The notes under the pieces are model-generated. The model was not told the DNA's origin, made no database searches, and saw only the letters and a list, made by a program, of their open reading frames with translations. This document shows positions 7,443 through 45,608 of a stretch of DNA of 64,000 nucleotides, one piece after another. This DNA is from Microbacterium sp. Its GTDB lineage: Bacteria > Actinomycetota > Actinomycetes > Actinomycetales > Microbacteriaceae. Each line of letters begins with the position of its first letter. Positions within the stretch are counted from its first letter, which is position 1. The position numbers were made by a program, and so were the translations under genes. The stretch covers positions 1-64,000 of the forward strand of contig JAQZBG010000002.1 in the NCBI GenBank assembly GCA_029239165.1, written 5' to 3'.

Positions 7443-8461
7443 CGGGGGTCGGTCATGGCGGCCATGAACTTGTCCGACGGCACGAGGGCCAGGTGGGCGT
7501 AGCGCTCCGTCACCCGGATGGAGCTGTGGCCCATGAGCTTACTGACCTCCTGGATTGTGAGCCCGGCCTGCAGCAGCCATGACGCGTACGTGTGGCGAAG
7601 GTCGTGCGGCCGGCCGCCGGTGTTGAGATCGTTCCACACATCCCGGCGCCAGTTCGATGAATTCGTGTGCGGGAAGACGAACGGGCCGCCCTCCTTCACG
7701 AAGGGCTTGATCTCGGCGACCACCCAGTCGGGGATCGGCACATCGCGGATCTTCCGGCTCTTCGGGTACTTCTTGACGACGCCGGTCGCCTGGTCGCGAA
7801 CGTGCGTCACGCGGATCATCCGGCGCTTCAGGTCCACCCGCTCGGGCGCGAGCCCGGCCATCTCACCCCAGCGCAGGCCGCAGCCGACGAGGAGTGCGAG
7901 CATGGCGCGGTCCCGCGGGCGGTCCTTGAGCTTCTTCATCATCTTCGCGACCTGCTTGCGCGTGAAGAATCGCATGATGTCCGTCTCCCCCGGCTCGAGG
8001 CCGAGGCGGAAGGTCGGGTTGGCGCGGATGATCTCAGCGTCGACGGCCGCCGACAGGGACATCGAGAAGACGCGCACGTTGCGGGTGACGCTGGACTCGG
8101 CGAGCCCCTTCTTCTGGAGCACCGTCACCCACTCCTTCACGGCGAATCGGGTGATGTCCACGAGGGGCACGTTCTCCCAGTGCGGCATGAGGTGGTTCTT
8201 CACCGCGGAGGCGTCGGCTCGCTTCGTCGACGGAGCCGGGTTGTGCGACGCCCACCAGGTCTCGTACCAGTCGCCCCACGTCCGCTTCCCGGAGGCCGGG
8301 TCGCGCCAGCCCGGCTTCGACGCCTCGTTCTCCGCGAGGGTCGCCTCGGCGATCGCGCGCTTCTCGTGCGGGAAGGTGCCGGCCGAGCGCGCCTTACCGT
8401 CCGGCCCGCGATACAGCGCGCGCCAGTTGCCAGAGGGGAGAGATTGCGTCCAAGCCACCAT
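7436..8461 (-). CDS. int: Tyrosine recombinase/integrase
   Basis: C-terminal RPHDLRHTYASWLLQAGLTIQEVSKLMGHSSIRVTERYAHL catalytic motif; N-terminal arm/core-binding region. Confidence 0.95.
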   Translation of the reverse strand: MVAWTQSLPSGNWRALYRGPDGKARSAGTFPHEKRAIAEATLAENEASKPGWRDPASGKRTWGDWYETWWASHNPAPSTKRADASAVKNHLMPHWENVPLVDITRFAVKEWVTVLQKKGLAESSVTRNVRVFSMSLSAAVDAEIIRANPTFRLGLEPGETDIMRFFTRKQVAKMMKKLKDRPRDRAMLALLVGCGLRWGEMAGLAPERVDLKRRMIRVTHVRDQATGVVKKYPKSRKIRDVPIPDWVVAEIKPFVKEGGPFVFPHTNSSNWRRDVWNDLNTGGRPHDLRHTYASWLLQAGLTIQEVSKLMGHSSIRVTERYAHLALVPSDKFMAAMTDPRV

Positions 8462-34164: not shown

Positions 34165-34553
34165 GCCGCGGCCTCCTTCGCCTTGTTCACTCGCCACTTC
34201 ACCGACGACCAGGGCTGCTCGAGGATGCGGGCGAGGAAGCCGGAGCTGGTGCCCATCTCGACGATCAGGGCGGTGAGCTTGGGGTTGGTCTCGTTCTGCT
34301 GCTTCAGCAGGAACTCCTCGAGGATCCACTCGAGGGTCTCGGGGTTGAAACGGCCGCCGGTGTGGTCGGTCTTCTCGACGCGCTGCCGGGCGTAGAAGCG
34401 CGAGACGCGGGCGAGGGCCGAGATGTGGCTCAGCGACCAGATGCCGTGCTCGGCGAGCAGGCGCACAGCTTCGGCCTTCTGGAACTCGTCGAAGCCGGCG
34501 CTGCGCCTGTAGATGTCGAGCGCCTCGCGGATCGCTCGCTGGTTGTCAGCCAT
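34161..34553 (-). CDS. HTH-like hypothetical protein
   Basis: IWSLSHISALARVSRFYARQRVEK. Confidence 0.6.
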   Translation of the reverse strand: MADNQRAIREALDIYRRSAGFDEFQKAEAVRLLAEHGIWSLSHISALARVSRFYARQRVEKTDHTGGRFNPETLEWILEEFLLKQQNETNPKLTALIVEMGTSSGFLARILEQPWSSVKWRVNKAKEAAA

Positions 34554-37173
34554 TGGTCAGAACTCCTTTCAAGCGCACGGTCTCGACGCCGCTCTCTGCC
34601 TTGCGCTCGACACGCCCCTGGGCGACGAGCTCCTCGATGAGGTCGATGACATCTCGCCTTCGGTTCTTGAAGCGGGCGAGACGGTGGATGGCGGCGAGCG
34701 GCATGTGCCCGCCGTGGGCGATGACGGCCTGCTCGATCGCGTTGACCTCGCGGGTGCGGAGGGACTCGTCGGTCAGCTCGACCATGGTCAGCGTGTTGGT
34801 GGCCCACTCCTCCGCCTGCTCGAGCGCGATGAGCATGTCGTCCATGCTCATCTGCAGGCGTCCGTCCGAGAGAGCGACGAGCGCGGCGCAGCGCATGACG
34901 GTCTCGCGGAGGCGGCGGAAGGTGGGCTTCAGCCTGTCGGTGTAGGTCGGGTGCTGTAGCGCGATCTTGGTGAGGGCGCGCTTGAACTCGCCGTGTCGGG
35001 CGATGACATCGCGCGGGATCTTCATGCGGTTGGGCTTGCCGTCGGCGCGGGAGATCGCCTGGATGGCGCTGCCGAACTCACTGGCCCACTGCTGGTACAT
35101 CAGGGCGCCGGATGCGACCTCAGGGGTCTCCTCGTCGATCTCTCCGTCGTGGAGGTAGTCGTCGTCGCCGTCGTCCTCGGTCGGCAGCGCGCCGATGGCC
35201 CAGACGAATCGGTTGAGGAAGCCGGACTCCCAGTCGTCGGGGCTCATCACGTCGGTCATCCCTCGCGGGGTGCCCATGAAGTGCGCCGTCATGAACGCGC
35301 GCGCGCTCTTGCCGCTGATCTCCTTCTTCGTCGCACGGTAGACCGCGCCCACATCGCCGTCGTACACGTCGGTCACGACGCCGGGCATCTCCGAGTACGG
35401 GCCCTGGATCTTCTTCCAGACCTGGATCTTGGTGTGCGCCTCGTCCATGTGGAACCAGGTCGCCTGCCCGTCCTTGCCGATCAGCGTCTCCACCAGCGAC
35501 TCGGGGGTGTGGTTGCCGCCGATGTCCGGGGTCTCGGAGAGGAGGTAGTAGGCCTTGAAGATGTGCTTGACGACGCGAAGGGCCTCGGTCTTGCCGGAGC
35601 CGGTGGTGCCGACGATGCCCTGGTAAAGGTTCAGGGGACGGTCGTTGCTACCGGGCCGCGGGAGGACGGCCTGCGGGCTGAGGATGACGGAGAGGACGGT
35701 CCAGCGGTTCATCCGGTAGTACGGGAGGTTGACGGTGTCGAAGGTGAGGTTCGCCCAGTCGATGAACCGGGATCCCCACCACTCGCATGCCGGGCTGGCG
35801 ACCCGCTCGCGCTCGGCGTCGGTGAGGAAGCTGATGCGGGTGGGCTCGTCGTAGTTCGGGCGCTCGCCGACGGGCGCGGCCTCGACGGTGGATCCGTCGG
35901 CCTTCGCGAGGTCCTCGCGCGCCTGGTCGAGCTCGCGCCAGAGGGCGTTCTCGGTGATGCACTTCGAGTCCTCGTCGACGAAGGTCTCGCCGCCGAAGCT
36001 GATGCCGGTGGCGCGCGCGGCCGCGGAGTGCCAGACGACGGTCGCGGCCTCCTGGTCGGTGAACCCGCTGCGCAGGAGGGCCGCGAGCAGCTGGCGCCTT
36101 CTGCCCCAGAGGGCACCGTCGCCTTCCTTCTCGGGGCGCGACCCCCACACGGTGATGAACATCTCCGAGCCGATGGTCGGGAAAGCGCGGTCGAGGGGGA
36201 AGCCGTTCCAGGGAAGGAGCGGCGGCCGCGTCTCAAGCGGGGGCTCCTCGAACTGGCCGGCGGTGGTGCGATCGGCGGATTCCCACTGCTCGATGATCTT
36301 GTCGGCGCCCCACGAGGGGTACGTCGGCGTGTGGTCGAGGAGCAGCTGGACGGCGCGGTCGTTGGTGAGCGCGTAGGCGTTGGAGCGGGCCATGCGGGCC
36401 AGCCAGCATGCGGCCGCGAAGACGGTGTCGTGCCAGCCGGCGCCGGGCGCCCACTTCGCGGGGAGGGCCTGCAGGCTGGAGACGATCGAGCGGAGCTTCC
36501 GCTCTTCGGTCTCGGATGCGACCTCGGGGATGTCGCCGTCCCACTGCTCGGTCTTGTGCTCGTGGTTCCCCTCCTCCTTGCGGAGGTAGTCGATCCAGGC
36601 CTCGGGCAGGTACTCGAGGTCCTCGAGCCGCGGCGGCTCGGCCATGAGCTCGCCCTCGGCGTCGTACCAGACATACTCGGGGTGGCCCTCGGCGTCGGGG
36701 TTTCTGCTGGGCGCGACGAGTGAATAGCGGTGCGAGTGCTGGATGACCTCGATGTCCTTGGCGGCCTTGCCCACCATCTCGACGTGCTCGGGGAGCACGA
36801 AGAAGTACTGGCGACTGGCGCTGTCCTGGCCGCGGGAGGTGGAACTCGGCGTGCCCGGGAGGGGGCCGAGCTTCGCCTCGAGGGCGGCGAGCTGGGCCGC
36901 GCCCTCCTTCGTGCCGTAGTCGTCTACGTCGATGCGAGCTTCGAGGAGGCCGGCGCGGAGTGCGATGTTGGCGGTCTGGGGGTCCTGGTTCCGCCACTCC
37001 TTCGTCTCCGGGTCTTTCCAGAGGAAGCCGTTCTGGATCCAGTCGGCGACCTTCTCGGGGGTGACGGTTCCGTCGGCGCCGGTCGCGCCGAAGGGCACGG
37101 GCCGCTTGTCTCGGACGGGGATCGGCTGGAATCCCCGCTCGAGATAGAAGGGAGCCGCTGCTGAGTAGGTCAC
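34546..37173 (-). CDS. Primase-polymerase/helicase fusion
   Basis: N-terminal PrimPol-like YLERGFQPIPVRDKRPVPFG..ARIDVDDYGT..STSRGQDSASRQYFFVL; C-terminal GIVGTTGSGKTEALRVVK P-loop. Confidence 0.85.
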   Translation of the reverse strand: MTYSAAAPFYLERGFQPIPVRDKRPVPFGATGADGTVTPEKVADWIQNGFLWKDPETKEWRNQDPQTANIALRAGLLEARIDVDDYGTKEGAAQLAALEAKLGPLPGTPSSTSRGQDSASRQYFFVLPEHVEMVGKAAKDIEVIQHSHRYSLVAPSRNPDAEGHPEYVWYDAEGELMAEPPRLEDLEYLPEAWIDYLRKEEGNHEHKTEQWDGDIPEVASETEERKLRSIVSSLQALPAKWAPGAGWHDTVFAAACWLARMARSNAYALTNDRAVQLLLDHTPTYPSWGADKIIEQWESADRTTAGQFEEPPLETRPPLLPWNGFPLDRAFPTIGSEMFITVWGSRPEKEGDGALWGRRRQLLAALLRSGFTDQEAATVVWHSAAARATGISFGGETFVDEDSKCITENALWRELDQAREDLAKADGSTVEAAPVGERPNYDEPTRISFLTDAERERVASPACEWWGSRFIDWANLTFDTVNLPYYRMNRWTVLSVILSPQAVLPRPGSNDRPLNLYQGIVGTTGSGKTEALRVVKHIFKAYYLLSETPDIGGNHTPESLVETLIGKDGQATWFHMDEAHTKIQVWKKIQGPYSEMPGVVTDVYDGDVGAVYRATKKEISGKSARAFMTAHFMGTPRGMTDVMSPDDWESGFLNRFVWAIGALPTEDDGDDDYLHDGEIDEETPEVASGALMYQQWASEFGSAIQAISRADGKPNRMKIPRDVIARHGEFKRALTKIALQHPTYTDRLKPTFRRLRETVMRCAALVALSDGRLQMSMDDMLIALEQAEEWATNTLTMVELTDESLRTREVNAIEQAVIAHGGHMPLAAIHRLARFKNRRRDVIDLIEELVAQGRVERKAESGVETVRLKGVLTNG

Positions 37174-37234
37174 GCGAGCGTGGGCTTCTGGTACTGCAAG
37201 AGGGTCGCGCTCCTTCTCGATTAGCTGGATGATT

Positions 37235-37336
37235 TGGTGGACCGGGGAGGACTCGAACCTCCGACCTTCGCTGGCGGCGAGGGAACCCCCACCCTCTGTG
37301 CCATGGCGACGCTCTGCCGTGCTGAGCTACCGGTCC
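37235..37336 (-). tRNA. tRNA-like gene with enlarged anticodon arm; anticodon not assignable
   Basis: GGACCGG TA GCTC-AGCACGGCA-GAGC … AGGTC GGAGG-TTCGAGT-CCTCC CCGGTCC A CCA: intact acceptor, D and T arms, encoded CCA; about 25 extra nt in anticodon region. Confidence 0.65.
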
Positions 37337-37376
37337 AGGTGGGCGGGGAGGTGAAGCGCTCCCCGCCCGGGTCTTG

Positions 37377-37529
37377 CTACTCGGCCTCGAACTCGATCTC
37401 CTCGAGCGACATGAGCTGCTCGTGGGCTTCGTCCTGGCCTTCGGCCGTGAGGCCGCTCGGGTGGTCGGGATCCAGATGGTCGTCGTTGTCCGGCGTGTAG
37501 TAGCCGGTCACCTTGATGCGGCCGCCCAT
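37377..37529 (-). CDS. 50-aa acidic hypothetical protein
   Basis: MGGRIKVTGYYTPDNDDHLDPDHPSGLTAEGQDEAHEQLMSLEEIEFEAE. Confidence 0.5.
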   Translation of the reverse strand: MGGRIKVTGYYTPDNDDHLDPDHPSGLTAEGQDEAHEQLMSLEEIEFEAE

Positions 37530-38338
37530 CAGAAGCCCTGCCCGCCCGCGGCGGCCGCGTCCTGCAGTGCCGTGTTGGCGGCCGGCGGCGTGCCCCAGCT
37601 CGGAGCCGGTGCGCCGGTCGGCGCGGCGCCACCCGGCTGCGTGGCCCACGAGGGCGCCGGGGCGCCCGCACCAGCGGCGGCGACCGCGGCCGGGGCCTGG
37701 CCGGTCAGCTCGGCGATGTAGGCCTTCGCCTCGGGGGTCTTGAAGGGATACTCGATGATGAGCTCGTCGTCGGCGTTGAGCCACTCGGCGACGGGCACGC
37801 CCTCGGTACGGCGCGGGGTCGTGTTCACGTCCCCGGCCTTGTTGAAGAAGTTCACCTCGTTGCTGCCGAGCGGGTTCCACTTGTCGGGCTCGATCGGGTC
37901 CGAGATGGTCACGCCGAGGCGCTTGCCCATCATGAAGTTCACGTCGGGCAGGCGGCCGGCGACGAGGTCCTCGTCGCTAACGCCGAGCGCACCCCAGAAG
38001 TCGAAGTAGTTCTTCGCCGGCTTGCCCTGGGGGGCGCCGTCCTTGGGGGCGAAGCGCGTGAACAGCGGGATGCGCACCTGGAAGTAGCGCTTCATGCCGA
38101 GCGGCGAATCGTCGACGATCTGCAGCGCGACGCGCAGCACCTTCTTCTTGCCGTTCGGGCCGGTGCCGCCGAAGTCCGCGACCTCCACGCGCTTGCTCGG
38201 GTCGTCCTTCTTCAGCGGGACGACGGCGACCTGATACTCACCTCTGGGCAGCGGGGGGAACTTGCCGTTCCCGCTCGAGGACTGGGACTCCTTGAGGGCG
38301 TCGGCGGCGTACTGGTCGGTTTCAACTGCGAAAGACAT
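37529..38338 (-). CDS. ssDNA-binding-like protein (DUF669-like)
   Basis: PPLPRGEYQVAVVPLKKDD…; adjacent to Sak4-like ATPase. Confidence 0.5.
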   Translation of the reverse strand: MSFAVETDQYAADALKESQSSSGNGKFPPLPRGEYQVAVVPLKKDDPSKRVEVADFGGTGPNGKKKVLRVALQIVDDSPLGMKRYFQVRIPLFTRFAPKDGAPQGKPAKNYFDFWGALGVSDEDLVAGRLPDVNFMMGKRLGVTISDPIEPDKWNPLGSNEVNFFNKAGDVNTTPRRTEGVPVAEWLNADDELIIEYPFKTPEAKAYIAELTGQAPAAVAAAGAGAPAPSWATQPGGAAPTGAPAPSWGTPPAANTALQDAAAAGGQGF

Positions 38339-38353
38339 TGCTGTCTCCTCTCC

Positions 38354-39205
38354 TTAGGCCGCGACTGCGGCGGGCTGTGCGAACGTGGGTGCGGGGGTGG
38401 ATGCCGCGGGGGCGGCGAGGTGCTGGTCGAGCTTGGCGTACAGGTCGAGCAGCGAGAAGTCGGTCATCCGGTTCTCGAGGAACTTGGAGTACCGGTTCTT
38501 CGTGACGTGGATGTCGGACTCGCCGAGGTTGGCGACCAGCTCGGTCTCGTTGCCCTCGCCCTTCTTCTGGAAGGAGAGGTGCGCGACGATCGAGGGGACG
38601 CCAGCGATCGAGTCCTTCGCGCCGCCCTGGAGCTTCGGGACGAGCGACACGGAGCCCGTCTCCTCGGTGGCGACCCGCTCGTGCAGCACGAAGATCGGCG
38701 TGGTGTGCGGGGCGTTGTGCAGTGCCCGCACGATGCGCATCGTCTCCTGGCCGACGAGACCCCAGGCCGCCTGCGTGTCGAGCTGGCCCTTGGAGTTCGT
38801 GGTGGTCGTGGTGAGGTACTGGACCATGACCTCCTGGAACACGTTGAGCGTGTCGATGAGCGTGAACTCGAAGCCGTAGTCGTTGAGGATGATGTCGTTC
38901 AGGATGCCCAGCGTGTTGCCGTAGGCGTTGGCGCCCGTGGGGTTCACGTTGTTGCTCTCGATGACGAGGCGGCCCTCGACCTTGGCCTGCATGATCTCGT
39001 CGTCGTTGATCACGGACTCGGCGCCCTGGTCGATGTCCAGCAGCAGCACGCGCGGGTTGTTCGGGCGCTTGACGAGTTCGGCCGCGAGGCTGGTCTTGCG
39101 GGTGCCCGGGCGGCCGTAGAGCAGGATGCTCTTCGGGTATCCGAAGCTGTCGGTGCCGCTGCCAACGGCGGAGAGCCAAGGCGGGGTTGCGAAAGTAGTG
39201 GTCAT
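38354..39205 (-). CDS. Sak4-like/RecA-family ATPase
   Basis: SILLYGRPGTRKTSLAAELVK, VLLLDIDQGAESV. Confidence 0.75.
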   Translation of the reverse strand: MTTTFATPPWLSAVGSGTDSFGYPKSILLYGRPGTRKTSLAAELVKRPNNPRVLLLDIDQGAESVINDDEIMQAKVEGRLVIESNNVNPTGANAYGNTLGILNDIILNDYGFEFTLIDTLNVFQEVMVQYLTTTTTNSKGQLDTQAAWGLVGQETMRIVRALHNAPHTTPIFVLHERVATEETGSVSLVPKLQGGAKDSIAGVPSIVAHLSFQKKGEGNETELVANLGESDIHVTKNRYSKFLENRMTDFSLLDLYAKLDQHLAAPAASTPAPTFAQPAAVAA

Positions 39206-42553: not shown

Positions 42554-43050
42554 TGCGCACTCCGATTCGTGTGGTCCGCGGGGGTGACCTGCTCCTCGAG
42601 CGCGTCGGCCCGCGTGACCAGCCAGGCTGCGATCGAGTGCGAGGCCTCGATCTCCGGCGTCGACGGCTCGTGGCCGTAGACCACGTCCCAGTCCATGAGG
42701 CTCGCCGCGATGTCCCGGTAGATCGACGCCGTCTGCACCGAAGCGGCGTCCGCAGCCCGGCGGCTGAAGCCCTGGGCGCCCAGCTCCTTCGCGACGATGC
42801 GCGCACCGGTGACCGAGATGGTCCCCTCGTCACGGCGAGACACGTTCCAGATCACCTGGCCCATCGCGTCGATCTCGGCCTCGGGCGAGGGCGCCAGAAT
42901 GTCGAAGAACGCCGAGACGAGCTGGTAGATGAATTTGTCCCCGACGAATTCGCGCCACGGCTCGCCGTGCCGGAGGACGGTCACCTGCCCGTGCTCCTCG
43001 TCGTTCTGCTGCAGCGTGTACTTGCCGTTCTCGAAGTCGTGGGTGCGCAT
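42550..43050 (-). CDS. Hypothetical protein
   Basis: Operon context. Confidence 0.6.
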   Translation of the reverse strand: MRTHDFENGKYTLQQNDEEHGQVTVLRHGEPWREFVGDKFIYQLVSAFFDILAPSPEAEIDAMGQVIWNVSRRDEGTISVTGARIVAKELGAQGFSRRAADAASVQTASIYRDIAASLMDWDVVYGHEPSTPEIEASHSIAAWLVTRADALEEQVTPADHTNRSAQ

Positions 43051-44378
43051 CAGGCGGCCACCGCTTCTTCCGACTCGAGGTCCACCTCGCCGGCGTCGAG
43101 CTGCGCCGTCTCGTAGAGGTAGTGGCTGTCGTTCTTGTACTTGAACAGCAAGGGCACGCGGCCGCCGCGGTCGACGCGGATCGCGATGCCCTCGTCAGCG
43201 CCCGTCCCGTTCGCATCCAGGGGCAGCGGCCGGTCGAGGTACGGCTCCTCGTCGTGGGCGCCGCTGTAGCCGTACGCGTAGGCGTGGAAGTCCTTCTCCC
43301 GGAAGTCCTCGAGCACGAAGTCGCGCTTGAAGCCGCGCCACAGTTCGGGGACGTGCTTCAGCCCGTGCTCGTCGCAGAACGTCCGCACCTGGTCCCAGGA
43401 CAGGTCGTACAGCTCGCCCGCGTTCGTGATGATCGAGACGCGGTAGACGTACAGCTCGCGCTGGCCGTTGGCGAGCCGGTAGGTGTGGCCCTTCTGGATC
43501 GGGGTCTCATCCCCCACCCAGCCGACGAGCTCTCCGTAGACGATGACGTTCTCGGGGATCCGGTCGCCGATCACCGCGAGGTGCTCCGTCCACAGGTCGC
43601 GCCCGTAGTGGTGCTGCTGCGTCTCCGACTTCGGGTCCTTGATGACCTGACGGGAGCCGGCGAGCAGGTCGAAGGAGCGCTCCTCGACGCGCACGCCGAG
43701 CTTCTGCGCCAGGCGCTCGAGCCAGCTGAGCTGGTTGCGCACGAGCGTGCGGGTGCCGCGCCACGAGGTGCCGTGGAGCTTCTGCGTGGCGATGAGCACG
43801 TCGTCGTCCGACAGCAGGTCCTCGTTGCGGAGGTACTGGTCGGTCTCAATGTGCACGGGGAAGAGCTTCGCGTCGACGCGCTTGAACGCCTTCTTGACGT
43901 TGCGCTCCTCGCGGCTGCCCTGCGAGACCGGCTCCTTCACGCGGAACTTGCGGGAGATCTCGTGACCGTCGATGTGGTCGAACGCGACCCCCTCGGTGAA
44001 GTCGTCGACGTACAGCCCGAACGCCGCCGCGACGACGTGGACGGGCAGCAGGAGGCCGTTGGAGACGGAGCCGCGGAGCTTCAGTGCGCGCACGCGCCGG
44101 TTGTCCTCGAGGTAGCCCTTGTCGGCCGGGTCGTCGTTCAGCTCGGAGTGTCGATACAGGCCGGCGCCGGCGGCGAGGGCGTGACTCAGCTGCGCCTCGG
44201 CCGGGAAGAACACCGCCAGATCACCCTCGTGGATGTCGCCGTCCTTCTGGGTGATGACGGTGTAGCCGAAGATGCCGACGCCGACGAGTCGGTCGGCCTT
44301 GGGGAGCGGGAACGGGGTGGGTACGCGCACCACCTGGGCGGCGTAGTTGCTGCTGTCGCGGATCTCGAACGTGGTCAT
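43050..44378 (-). CDS. RNA ligase
   Basis: TQKLHGTS nucleotidyl-transfer motif, VIVYGELVGW, EGIAIRVD, LFKYKN. Confidence 0.8.
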   Translation of the reverse strand: MTTFEIRDSSNYAAQVVRVPTPFPLPKADRLVGVGIFGYTVITQKDGDIHEGDLAVFFPAEAQLSHALAAGAGLYRHSELNDDPADKGYLEDNRRVRALKLRGSVSNGLLLPVHVVAAAFGLYVDDFTEGVAFDHIDGHEISRKFRVKEPVSQGSREERNVKKAFKRVDAKLFPVHIETDQYLRNEDLLSDDDVLIATQKLHGTSWRGTRTLVRNQLSWLERLAQKLGVRVEERSFDLLAGSRQVIKDPKSETQQHHYGRDLWTEHLAVIGDRIPENVIVYGELVGWVGDETPIQKGHTYRLANGQRELYVYRVSIITNAGELYDLSWDQVRTFCDEHGLKHVPELWRGFKRDFVLEDFREKDFHAYAYGYSGAHDEEPYLDRPLPLDANGTGADEGIAIRVDRGGRVPLLFKYKNDSHYLYETAQLDAGEVDLESEEAVAA

Positions 44379-44394: not shown

Positions 44395-45357
44395 TCAGAA
44401 GTCGTGGTCGGTGTCGCCGACGGCGAAGGTGGTGAGGCCCTTGGCGCGCCACATGCGCAGCACGCGCGGCCGGTCGTCGAGGATGCCGACGATGTTGTAC
44501 CTGCCGGCGATCTCGGTGTCGAAGATGTTGGCCTTGACGATGTCGTCCGGGGTGCCAGCCTGCGCGTCGGCGAGGCTGCGGAAGTGGAACTCGTCGGGGC
44601 GCACGCGCACGCGCTCGAGCCACCACTGCTCCGTCACGGCGCGGAACTCCTCGCTGCGACCGGAGACGCCGATGATGTAGGCGGAGTCCTGCAGCAGGGC
44701 GACGAGTCGGGCGACGTTCTCGAAGAGGCCGTCCTGCGAGTAGAGCGCGGCGTCCTTCGCGTACGGCGAGCGGTGCGACAGGTCGGCGACCGTGCCGTCG
44801 GTGTCGACGATCCAGGCGTCGGGGAGGTCCGGGTTCCAGGCGGGCGCCGGCTTCCACGGGACGGCCGATCCACGCTTCCCGGGGGTGGTCTGCAGGTGCA
44901 GCTCGGGGTTCAGCTCGTAGGCCGGGAGCGCTCCGTGCGCGGGGATCCCGAAGCGCTGCGCCAGCTCGGTGATGACGGCCACGCCGACTCCGCGCTCTCC
45001 TCGAGCGACGCGGAGCTCGTCGGCCTGGATGCACTCGGCGACGGGCTTGACGCAGTCGAGCAGCTCCACCGGGGCGATCTTCTCCCAGCGCTTCACGTAG
45101 CGCGCGCGGAGGTGCATGGCGTCGACGATCACGTCGCGCCCCTCCTTGAGGGCGGCGCGGACGAGGCTCTCCTCGGCGCGCGTCACAACCTCCTCGTCGC
45201 CGTGCGTGAGCTGGCCGGCGGGCTTGCCGAACAGCATGGCGCGGATGTCGTCGCGGTTCACGCGCGCACGCCTGTCGGGCTCTTCGGCCACCCAGGCCTT
45301 CGCGAGGGTGGTCTTGCCGGAGCCGGGCAGGCCCCTCGTCACGATGATCTTGGTCAC
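44395..45357 (-). CDS. Polynucleotide kinase/phosphatase (T4 Pnkp-like)
   Basis: IIVTRGLPGSGKTTLAKAW kinase P-loop; WIVDTDGTVADLSHRSP HAD-phosphatase motif; GILDDRPRVLRMW. Confidence 0.85.
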   Translation of the reverse strand: MTKIIVTRGLPGSGKTTLAKAWVAEEPDRRARVNRDDIRAMLFGKPAGQLTHGDEEVVTRAEESLVRAALKEGRDVIVDAMHLRARYVKRWEKIAPVELLDCVKPVAECIQADELRVARGERGVGVAVITELAQRFGIPAHGALPAYELNPELHLQTTPGKRGSAVPWKPAPAWNPDLPDAWIVDTDGTVADLSHRSPYAKDAALYSQDGLFENVARLVALLQDSAYIIGVSGRSEEFRAVTEQWWLERVRVRPDEFHFRSLADAQAGTPDDIVKANIFDTEIAGRYNIVGILDDRPRVLRMWRAKGLTTFAVGDTDHDF

Positions 45358-45608
45358 TGCTGGATCCTTCCGATGGGGCGGAACGCGGTCGCGTTCGCGT
45401 GGATGCCGTACTGGACGAGCTGGATGGCGCACTCCTTCGAGCACGTATAGATCTCGTCGGTCAGGTAGTGGTTGTGGGCTTCGGTGACTCGGCGGATGGT
45501 GAGGTAGACGCCTTCGGGCATGTCGGTGGAGAACGGCGATGCTGCCTGGGCGACTGTGCCGCATCCGCCGCACTCGTAGCCGGTGACGGTCTTCGTGATG
45601 CGCGTCAT
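45354..45608 (-). CDS. Small zinc-ribbon-like protein
   Basis: GYECGGCGTVAQ…YTCSKECAIQ. Confidence 0.6.
   Translation of the reverse strand: MTRITKTVTGYECGGCGTVAQAASPFSTDMPEGVYLTIRRVTEAHNHYLTDEIYTCSKECAIQLVQYGIHANATAFRPIGRIQQ

Follow-up and report, generated by a model that had tools for sequence, protein, structure and literature searches.

Background

In the eukaryotic long non-coding RNAs MALAT1 and NEAT1, the 3′ end of the upstream RNA is shielded by a structure, a triple helix, located just before the cut. The tRNA-like parts of these RNAs (mascRNA and menRNA) are released by the tRNA-processing machinery, as outlined in PMC12941219. The phage element described here is similar in that a tRNA-like sequence follows a structure just upstream of the presumed cut site; that structure, however, is a hairpin, and the upstream RNA would be an mRNA. 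As for bacterial RNase P, it uses the T loop, a 12-bp ruler and RCCA, and cleaves acceptor/T minihelices, phage RNAs and mRNAs (PMC11143913), with phage M3 RNA, C4 antisense RNA and T4 gene 32 mRNA cut by the host enzyme. As described there, however, the latter substrates are not 100-nt modules resembling a tRNA gene with T loop, D arm and CCA, and do not occupy a slot beside a primase gene.

The tRNA-like domain of tmRNA shares with most relatives of the present element a G3:U70 acceptor, a T arm and a longer helix in place of the anticodon arm. In contrast to tmRNA, the class considered here has neither a reading frame nor pseudoknots, measures about 70-120 nt, and includes an element, that of the window, with A3:U70. 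Bacillus cereus tRNAOther is presented in PMC3399842 as a pseudo-tRNA that does not serve translation and yet has a phenotype. In this respect it is like the phage element as we propose it, a tRNA-like RNA outside translation, but it is chromosomal and lies beside a genomic island, whereas the phage element belongs to a replication operon. Regarding Microbacterium phages themselves, a published survey credits several EA subclusters with "a single tRNA-Ala" and records no tRNA at all for the EG phages (PMC7302621). The cluster EA element (Zepp, Neferthena and Koji), which precedes DNA polymerase I and was published simply as tRNA-Ala, is placed here in the non-decoding class, as are cluster EG elements, which that survey counted as zero tRNAs.

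Structure of the element

The window, i.e. the whole 64,000-nt stretch analysed (Microbacterium sp., assembly GCA_029239165.1, contig JAQZBG010000002.1, part of a genome bin), belongs to a tailed phage of actinobacterial type, and its relevant features are collected in Table 1. The preliminary description placed a tRNA-like gene at 37235-37336; the span holds, with the correction that the gene lies on the minus strand. The 102-nt element is read from 37336 to 37235 in the order GGACCGG-TA-GCTC-AGCACGGCA-GAGC-G, extended arm (TCGC CA TGGC ACA GAGGG TGGGGGTT CCCTC GCC GCCA GCGA), AGGTC-GGAGG-TTCGAGT-CCTCC-CCGGTCC-A-CCA.

Table 1. Features of the tRNA-like element and its surroundings in the window
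Feature	Coordinates	Strand	Evidence or remark
tRNA-like RNA gene, CCA encoded, read as not a decoding tRNA	37235..37336	-	Rfam RF00005, ARAGORN, shuffles
Acceptor 5′ strand GGACCGG; A3:U70, not the alanine pair G3:U70	37330..37336	-	7/7 pairs with 37239-37245
D arm GCTC-AGCACGGCA-GAGC, stem 4/4	37311..37327	-	
Extended arm replacing the anticodon arm	37268..37309	-	computed fold
T arm GGAGG-TTCGAGT-CCTCC, stem 5/5	37246..37262	-	near-identical in L154 and L165 (alignment)
Acceptor 3′ strand CCGGTCC, discriminator A and encoded CCA	37235..37245	-	
10-bp GC hairpin GGGCGGGGAG-CGCTTCAC-CTCCCCGCCC	37341..37368	-	-22.0 kcal/mol
Prim-Pol / DUF3987 primase, downstream, start 61 nt after CCA	34546..37173	-	PF09250, PF13148; phrog_10514
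Short acidic ORF, 50 aa, upstream; stop 8 nt before hairpin	37377..37530	-	read from sequence
269-aa protein in the slot of ssDNA-binding protein in other phages	37529..38338	-	position only
Sak4-like AAA_24 ATPase	38354..39205	-	PF13479, phrog_124; gene order as in distant L190
RNA ligase	43050-44378	-	PF09414, phrog_968
PNKP-like kinase-phosphatase	44395-45573	-	PF25109, PF13671

The acceptor stem, D arm, AGGTC, T arm and CCA, noted earlier as intact, are all confirmed by pairing (7/7, 4/4 and 5/5) and by the Rfam tRNA model (RF00005; 51.2 bits, E 4.6e-8). This covariance scoring, which had been suggested as a check, gives a clear tRNA match and yet leaves the element without a standard anticodon arm: the alignment skips 34 nt between the two halves of a 4-bp stem, and the ARAGORN call is tRNA-???. 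Dinucleotide shuffling of the slot, repeated 2000 times, never produced an acceptor and T arm of equal quality. An identical copy of the element is found in IMG/VR contig 3300042934_000727 (same phage), which makes an assembly slip unlikely.

The distance from D arm to T arm, 48 nt as described before, compares with 23 nt in class I tRNA. According to the computed fold, the extended arm consists of TCGC/GCGA, a CA bulge, TGGC/GCCA, a 3x3 internal loop and GAGGG/CCCTC closed by the 8-nt loop TGGGGGTT, which bears out the earlier reading of an extended arm in place of the 7-nt anticodon loop. The outer and GAGGG/CCCTC helices are those first proposed; the second helix, however, has 4 bp (TGGC/GCCA, formed with the second GCC) instead of GGC/GCC.

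When the element is compared with a decoding class I tRNA, the acceptor, D arm, T arm and CCA are all present, and a 7-nt anticodon loop with U33 on a 5-bp stem is absent. A class II tRNA is rejected, in agreement with the first reading, because the variable loop is just AGGTC and the additional nucleotides are found between TCGC and GCGA. A tmRNA reading frame or pseudoknots are likewise absent from these 102 nt, the window has no RF00023 match, and ARAGORN finds no tmRNA. The element is regarded as a genuine tRNA-like one, and its non-decoding character, predicted from this structure, is well supported.

An intron-bearing tRNA, which the preliminary description had also offered, proves a weak candidate and is quite improbable. 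Under this explanation, a tRNA-Ala(GGC) would contain a 25-nt intron at 37/38, spliced perhaps by the phage kinase-phosphatase and RNA ligase, the genes of both being present in the same phage. Every excision restoring a class I anticodon arm was enumerated, an approach that works well for other phage tRNAs, some of which do look intron-bearing. Excising CAGAGGGTGGGGGTTCCCTCGCCGC leaves the loop ATGGCAC with U33, anticodon GGC and A37, the start of this loop matches host-genus tRNA-Ala(GGC), and a bulge-helix-bulge-like fold can be drawn. That fold, however, differs from the minimum-energy one, C31 and A39 remain mismatched after excision, shuffling the middle gives an equal score in about 13% of cases, and A3:U70 is not alanine identity. 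Moreover, tRNA-splicing endonuclease (PF01974) was found neither in the 83% complete host genome nor in the phage contig (archaeal controls positive), repair-gene matches were not found in slot relatives in searches run without a positive control, and in the related locus L154 the D arm is replaced, so no excision could yield a normal tRNA there. As for ARAGORN with introns allowed, it proposes a 4-nt intron and a 98-nt tRNA-Ala for the element, which is implausible.

In the same excision scan, the top score was reached by 43 of 94 long candidates of all kinds versus 1.1 expected in shuffles. Insertions of 39-50 nt occur in tRNA genes of IMG/VR contigs L033, L040, L047, L057, L067, L077, L093, L103, L105, L115, L131 and L133, where they interrupt the anticodon stem on its 5′ side, near 29/30; their removal mostly restores a perfect 5-bp stem, a 7-nt loop, U33 and purine 37, and most share a stem-loop and an ACAGCAA motif. 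These insertions look like an undescribed, putative mini-intron family. L067 and L057 have several more tRNAs of about 112-127 nt, and L057 carries at 7967-8218 a tmRNA of the cyanobacterial/permuted type within a viral contig with dozens of tRNA genes. In L034, L054 and L062, tRNA-likes have anticodon-loop insertions of about 45 nt holding a second T-arm-like sequence (GTTCAACTC).

Genomic setting

The element sits in a minus-strand replication module, between the gene in the SSB position and the primase gene. As an SSB homologue, the 269-aa protein is rejected by similarity: it does not resemble the Tempo SSB and has no Pfam or PHROG match, and the assignment is made by position only. No Pfam match was obtained for the 50-aa ORF. 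The GC hairpin ends 4 nt before +1 of the tRNA-like element, a search after it for a T-tailed terminator found none, and a consensus promoter scan of 37100-38400 was negative, actinobacterial promoters being poorly covered by consensus. Because the hairpin is too near +1 for a promoter between them and has no T run, the tRNA-like element is presumably transcribed by read-through from upstream.

The adjoining RNA ligase and PNKP-like genes form a T4-type RNA repair pair; in connection with it the element might be a decoy for host anticodon nucleases, as the preliminary description had suggested, or serve as a repair substrate. We consider this very improbable, the least probable of the explanations weighed here, because such nucleases act on the anticodon loop, precisely the part lost by the family. 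In addition, the repair genes have no full match in records of the relatives bearing a tRNA-like element or in the Squash genome, the sole exception in these searches (made without a positive control) being one partial match to the C-terminal part of PNKP in the L183 contig.

The same slot in related phages

A DNA similarity search of the locus against phage records gave no relatives, and protein searches were therefore used. The decisive comparison is that of the slot contents in Microbacterium phages 53-76% identical in the adjacent primase. The closest, L020 (76%), has the same hairpin followed by an ordinary tRNA-Asn(GUU), and L022 also has a tRNA-Asn. L154 carries a 111-nt tRNA-like element in which the D arm is replaced by CAAC-GCG-GTTG and the middle is a long stem (L163 and L166 are identical to it over this stretch), and L165 carries one of 121 nt with yet another middle; ARAGORN detects neither. 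The hairpin is kept in L154, L165 and L020, and in L164/L155 a hairpin stands without a tRNA-like element. In L021 the slot contains two structures: a tRNA whose loop has 6 nt and, just upstream of it, a mini acceptor/T hairpin (L021 4717-4775). The latter, a minimal acceptor and T arm with TCCA, resembles a minimal RNase P substrate.

The elements of the window, L154 and L165 have the T arm and ACCA in common, near-identical acceptors and unrelated middles; owing to the shared parts they are taken as homologous. The search for the same insertion in related phages, suggested earlier as a check, shows that a tRNA or tRNA-like element recurs in the slot; neither the sequence nor the length of the extended arm is conserved across orthologous slots. 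Of the roles first suggested, a noncoding tRNA mimic is supported, as these slots carry differing tRNA-likes that are unable to decode, one with its D arm replaced. The ordinary tRNA-Asn of L020 in the same hairpin-tRNA-primase arrangement indicates that the position persists, not the isotype.

Comparable elements are present in more distant phages. The order in L190 is AAA_24, DUF669, hairpin, a tRNA-like element with a degenerate anticodon arm, and DUF3987 primase. The gap between the SSB-position gene and the primase contains two tRNA genes with aberrant loops in Arthrobacter phage Molivia, one such gene beside a tRNA called Val in Arthrobacter phage Gorgeous, a hairpin, an unannotated 96-nt tRNA-like element and tRNA-Leu in Curtobacterium phage Yappy, and an unannotated 99-nt tRNA-like element with a long arm followed by tRNA-Leu in Microbacterium phage BarnCat. 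Nonagon and JustBecause have only the hairpin, and in the gap of about 375 nt before the CMP1 primase no convincing tRNA-like element was found. The hairpin without a tRNA-like element in L164, Nonagon and JustBecause implies that the element is dispensable.

Four more genera have comparable slots. In Squashvirus and Gillianvirus (Squash, Tempo, Fizzles) the element lies between the SSB gene and the next gene and has 4- or 6-nt loops, with a hairpin inserted in the D loop of Squash; in Neferthenavirus and Kojivirus (Zepp, Neferthena, Koji) it precedes DNA polymerase I and has a stunted anticodon arm or a 15-nt loop. GenBank labels such elements tRNA-OTHER, tRNA-Tyr, tRNA-Ser, tRNA-Phe, tRNA-Ala, or not at all. 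Most of these further tRNA-likes are without a usable anticodon, and several are unannotated. These comparisons give good support to placing the window element in a class that recurs in the replication operons of actinophages and is largely unannotated.

Conserved features

In nearly all members the 7-bp acceptor abuts the 5-bp T stem to form a 12-bp stack, and the T loop is TTCRANN; A73 occurs in most. Alterations are frequent in the D arm and all but universal in the anticodon arm. Encoded CCA is missing in Squash (ACCC), Tempo (ACAC), BarnCat (ACTT) and L190 (ACAT). Most members have a strong hairpin whose end lies 3-9 nt ahead of +1: with a threshold of -18 kcal/mol or below and a distance within 8 nt of +1, it is found in 11 of 16 members, and of the GC-rich ordinary phage tRNAs 11 of 60 have one (Fisher p 2e-4; here as elsewhere, p-values overstate independence since the members are partly related). 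L183, L173, L171, L021 and L022 have no strong hairpin at this place. The tRNA fold, the missing anticodon loop, the conserved slot and the hairpin spacing kept in most members can all be read off the sequences directly.

A decaying tRNA pseudogene without function would account for the varied broken anticodon arms in one slot and for the absence of the element in L155/L164. Such decay, however, would hit both halves of the molecule, and would not repeatedly yield 4- and 6-nt hairpin loops and new long arms. Almost all members retain unbroken acceptor and T stems, and compensatory changes are seen in the Neferthenavirus T stem and hairpin (read from the alignment, without a formal pair count) and at acceptor pair 5-68 between Tempo and Fizzles, which makes a pseudogene unlikely. 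In the same Neferthenavirus alignment, the degenerate anticodon-arm region is unchanged in five isolates, a hint that the arm may matter there too.

The alanine signal

Bacterial alanine identity consists of A73, G2-C71, G3.U70, G4-C69 and G20, with no anticodon element, and alanylation by insect or human AlaRS is reported to be lost when the pair is changed to A3:U70 (PMC9976931). G3:U70 with A73 is found in Squash, Tempo, Fizzles, Zepp, Koji and BarnCat, as well as in L154, L165, L168, L171, L183, L190 and a marine family. Among ordinary tRNAs of the loci, by comparison, G3:U70 occurs in 11 of 648 non-Ala versus 33 of 34 Ala genes, and it is present in 4 of 10 members found by synteny alone (binomial p 2e-5). 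In a T-arm/acceptor scan of viral contigs, which fixes U70 and A73, the aberrant elements have G3 except that of the window, and the ordinary non-Ala tRNAs have A3 (G3:A3 of 9:1 versus 0:8, p 2e-4, counted by type and by hand with the uncertain calls L172, L185, L186 and L187 excluded).

These counts favour an action in trans, in which the element would be an aminoacylated tRNA mimic without an anticodon, accepting alanine in most relatives. As one example, it might act as a decoy, whether for a defence directed at tRNA ends, for AlaRS/EF-Tu or for tmRNA/SmpB; the last of these likewise uses a G3:U70 tRNA-like domain without anticodon. The window element itself, however, combines A73 with A3:U70, and alanine charging therefore cannot be claimed for it. 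G3:U70 is also absent from Yappy, Molivia, Gorgeous and L021, it may merely record descent from tRNA-Ala, and a role in trans needs neither the hairpin nor a fixed operon slot; we consider this explanation doubtful. What G3:U70 in many relatives suggests is either alanine charging or descent from tRNA-Ala. A broader and equally tentative possibility is that actinophages and some marine phages encode widespread anticodon-less tRNA-likes that would be charged by host AlaRS and act in trans, as decoys for tRNA-end-targeting immunity or tmRNA/SmpB rescue, in addition to marking a processing site. Charging of the G3:U70 members, if it occurs, would make them tRNA mimics of phage origin that accept an amino acid without an anticodon, of which we found no report.

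An RF00023 match occurs only in the marine family, below the cut-off and resting on acceptor and T arm only. A separate tRNA-like family of about 79 nt (GGGCGTG..CACGTCC; L167, L173, L174, L176, L181, L191, L192, L193 and L200) has G3:U70, A73, no anticodon and a sub-threshold Rfam tmRNA match. Its extended stem covaries (TGCTGA/TCAGCA, TGCAAA/TTTGCA, TGTTGA/TCAACA), and a tRNA-Met gene is called near the element in several contigs.

Proposed role

Bacterial RNase P recognises the T loop, the 12-bp ruler and RCCA, which are also the parts conserved in the class, and for this reason punctuation of the transcript by RNase P/Z is proposed. The window element has the features of an RNase P substrate (contiguous 7+5 bp acceptor/T stack, TTCGAGT loop, ACCA), a fixed operon position and structure before +1. 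These parts are kept while the rest varies, with lengths of 102 nt in the window, 111 nt in L154 and 121 nt in L165. The ordinary tRNA-Asn in the L020 slot supports a role based on position. We estimate a probability of about 0.5 that the element is a non-decoding tRNA-like sequence letting RNase P/Z cut the replication transcript and leave a hairpin-capped mRNA end. The intron and anticodon-nuclease explanations both fall well behind this one, which, for its part, does not explain the excess of G3:U70 among the relatives, and against which stand the missing CCA of several members, the loci with a hairpin alone and those lacking a strong hairpin.

According to this proposal, transcription probably passes the weakly terminating hairpin into the tRNA-like element. 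Host RNase P would measure the 12-bp acceptor/T stack, read A-CCA and cut at +1, leaving the 3′ end of the upstream mRNA 4 nt behind the GC hairpin, which would shield it from exonucleases, and the primase mRNA would be released by 3′ processing behind CCA. Since decoding is not required of the remainder of the molecule, its anticodon arm would be free to be lost or lengthened. From the arrangement we infer RNase P/Z cleavage, protection by the hairpin and separate expression of two mRNAs; processing, not translation, is probably the role of such tRNA-likes in phage mRNA.

Gene finders give these elements the label "tRNA-OTHER" or a wrong name (tRNA-Phe, -Ser, -Tyr), or overlook them, and it seems that an RNA component recurring in phage replication operons has in this way escaped recognition. 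If the element is a processing signal, the host tRNA-maturation machinery would set the ratio of SSB to primase, much as with MALAT1 in animals.
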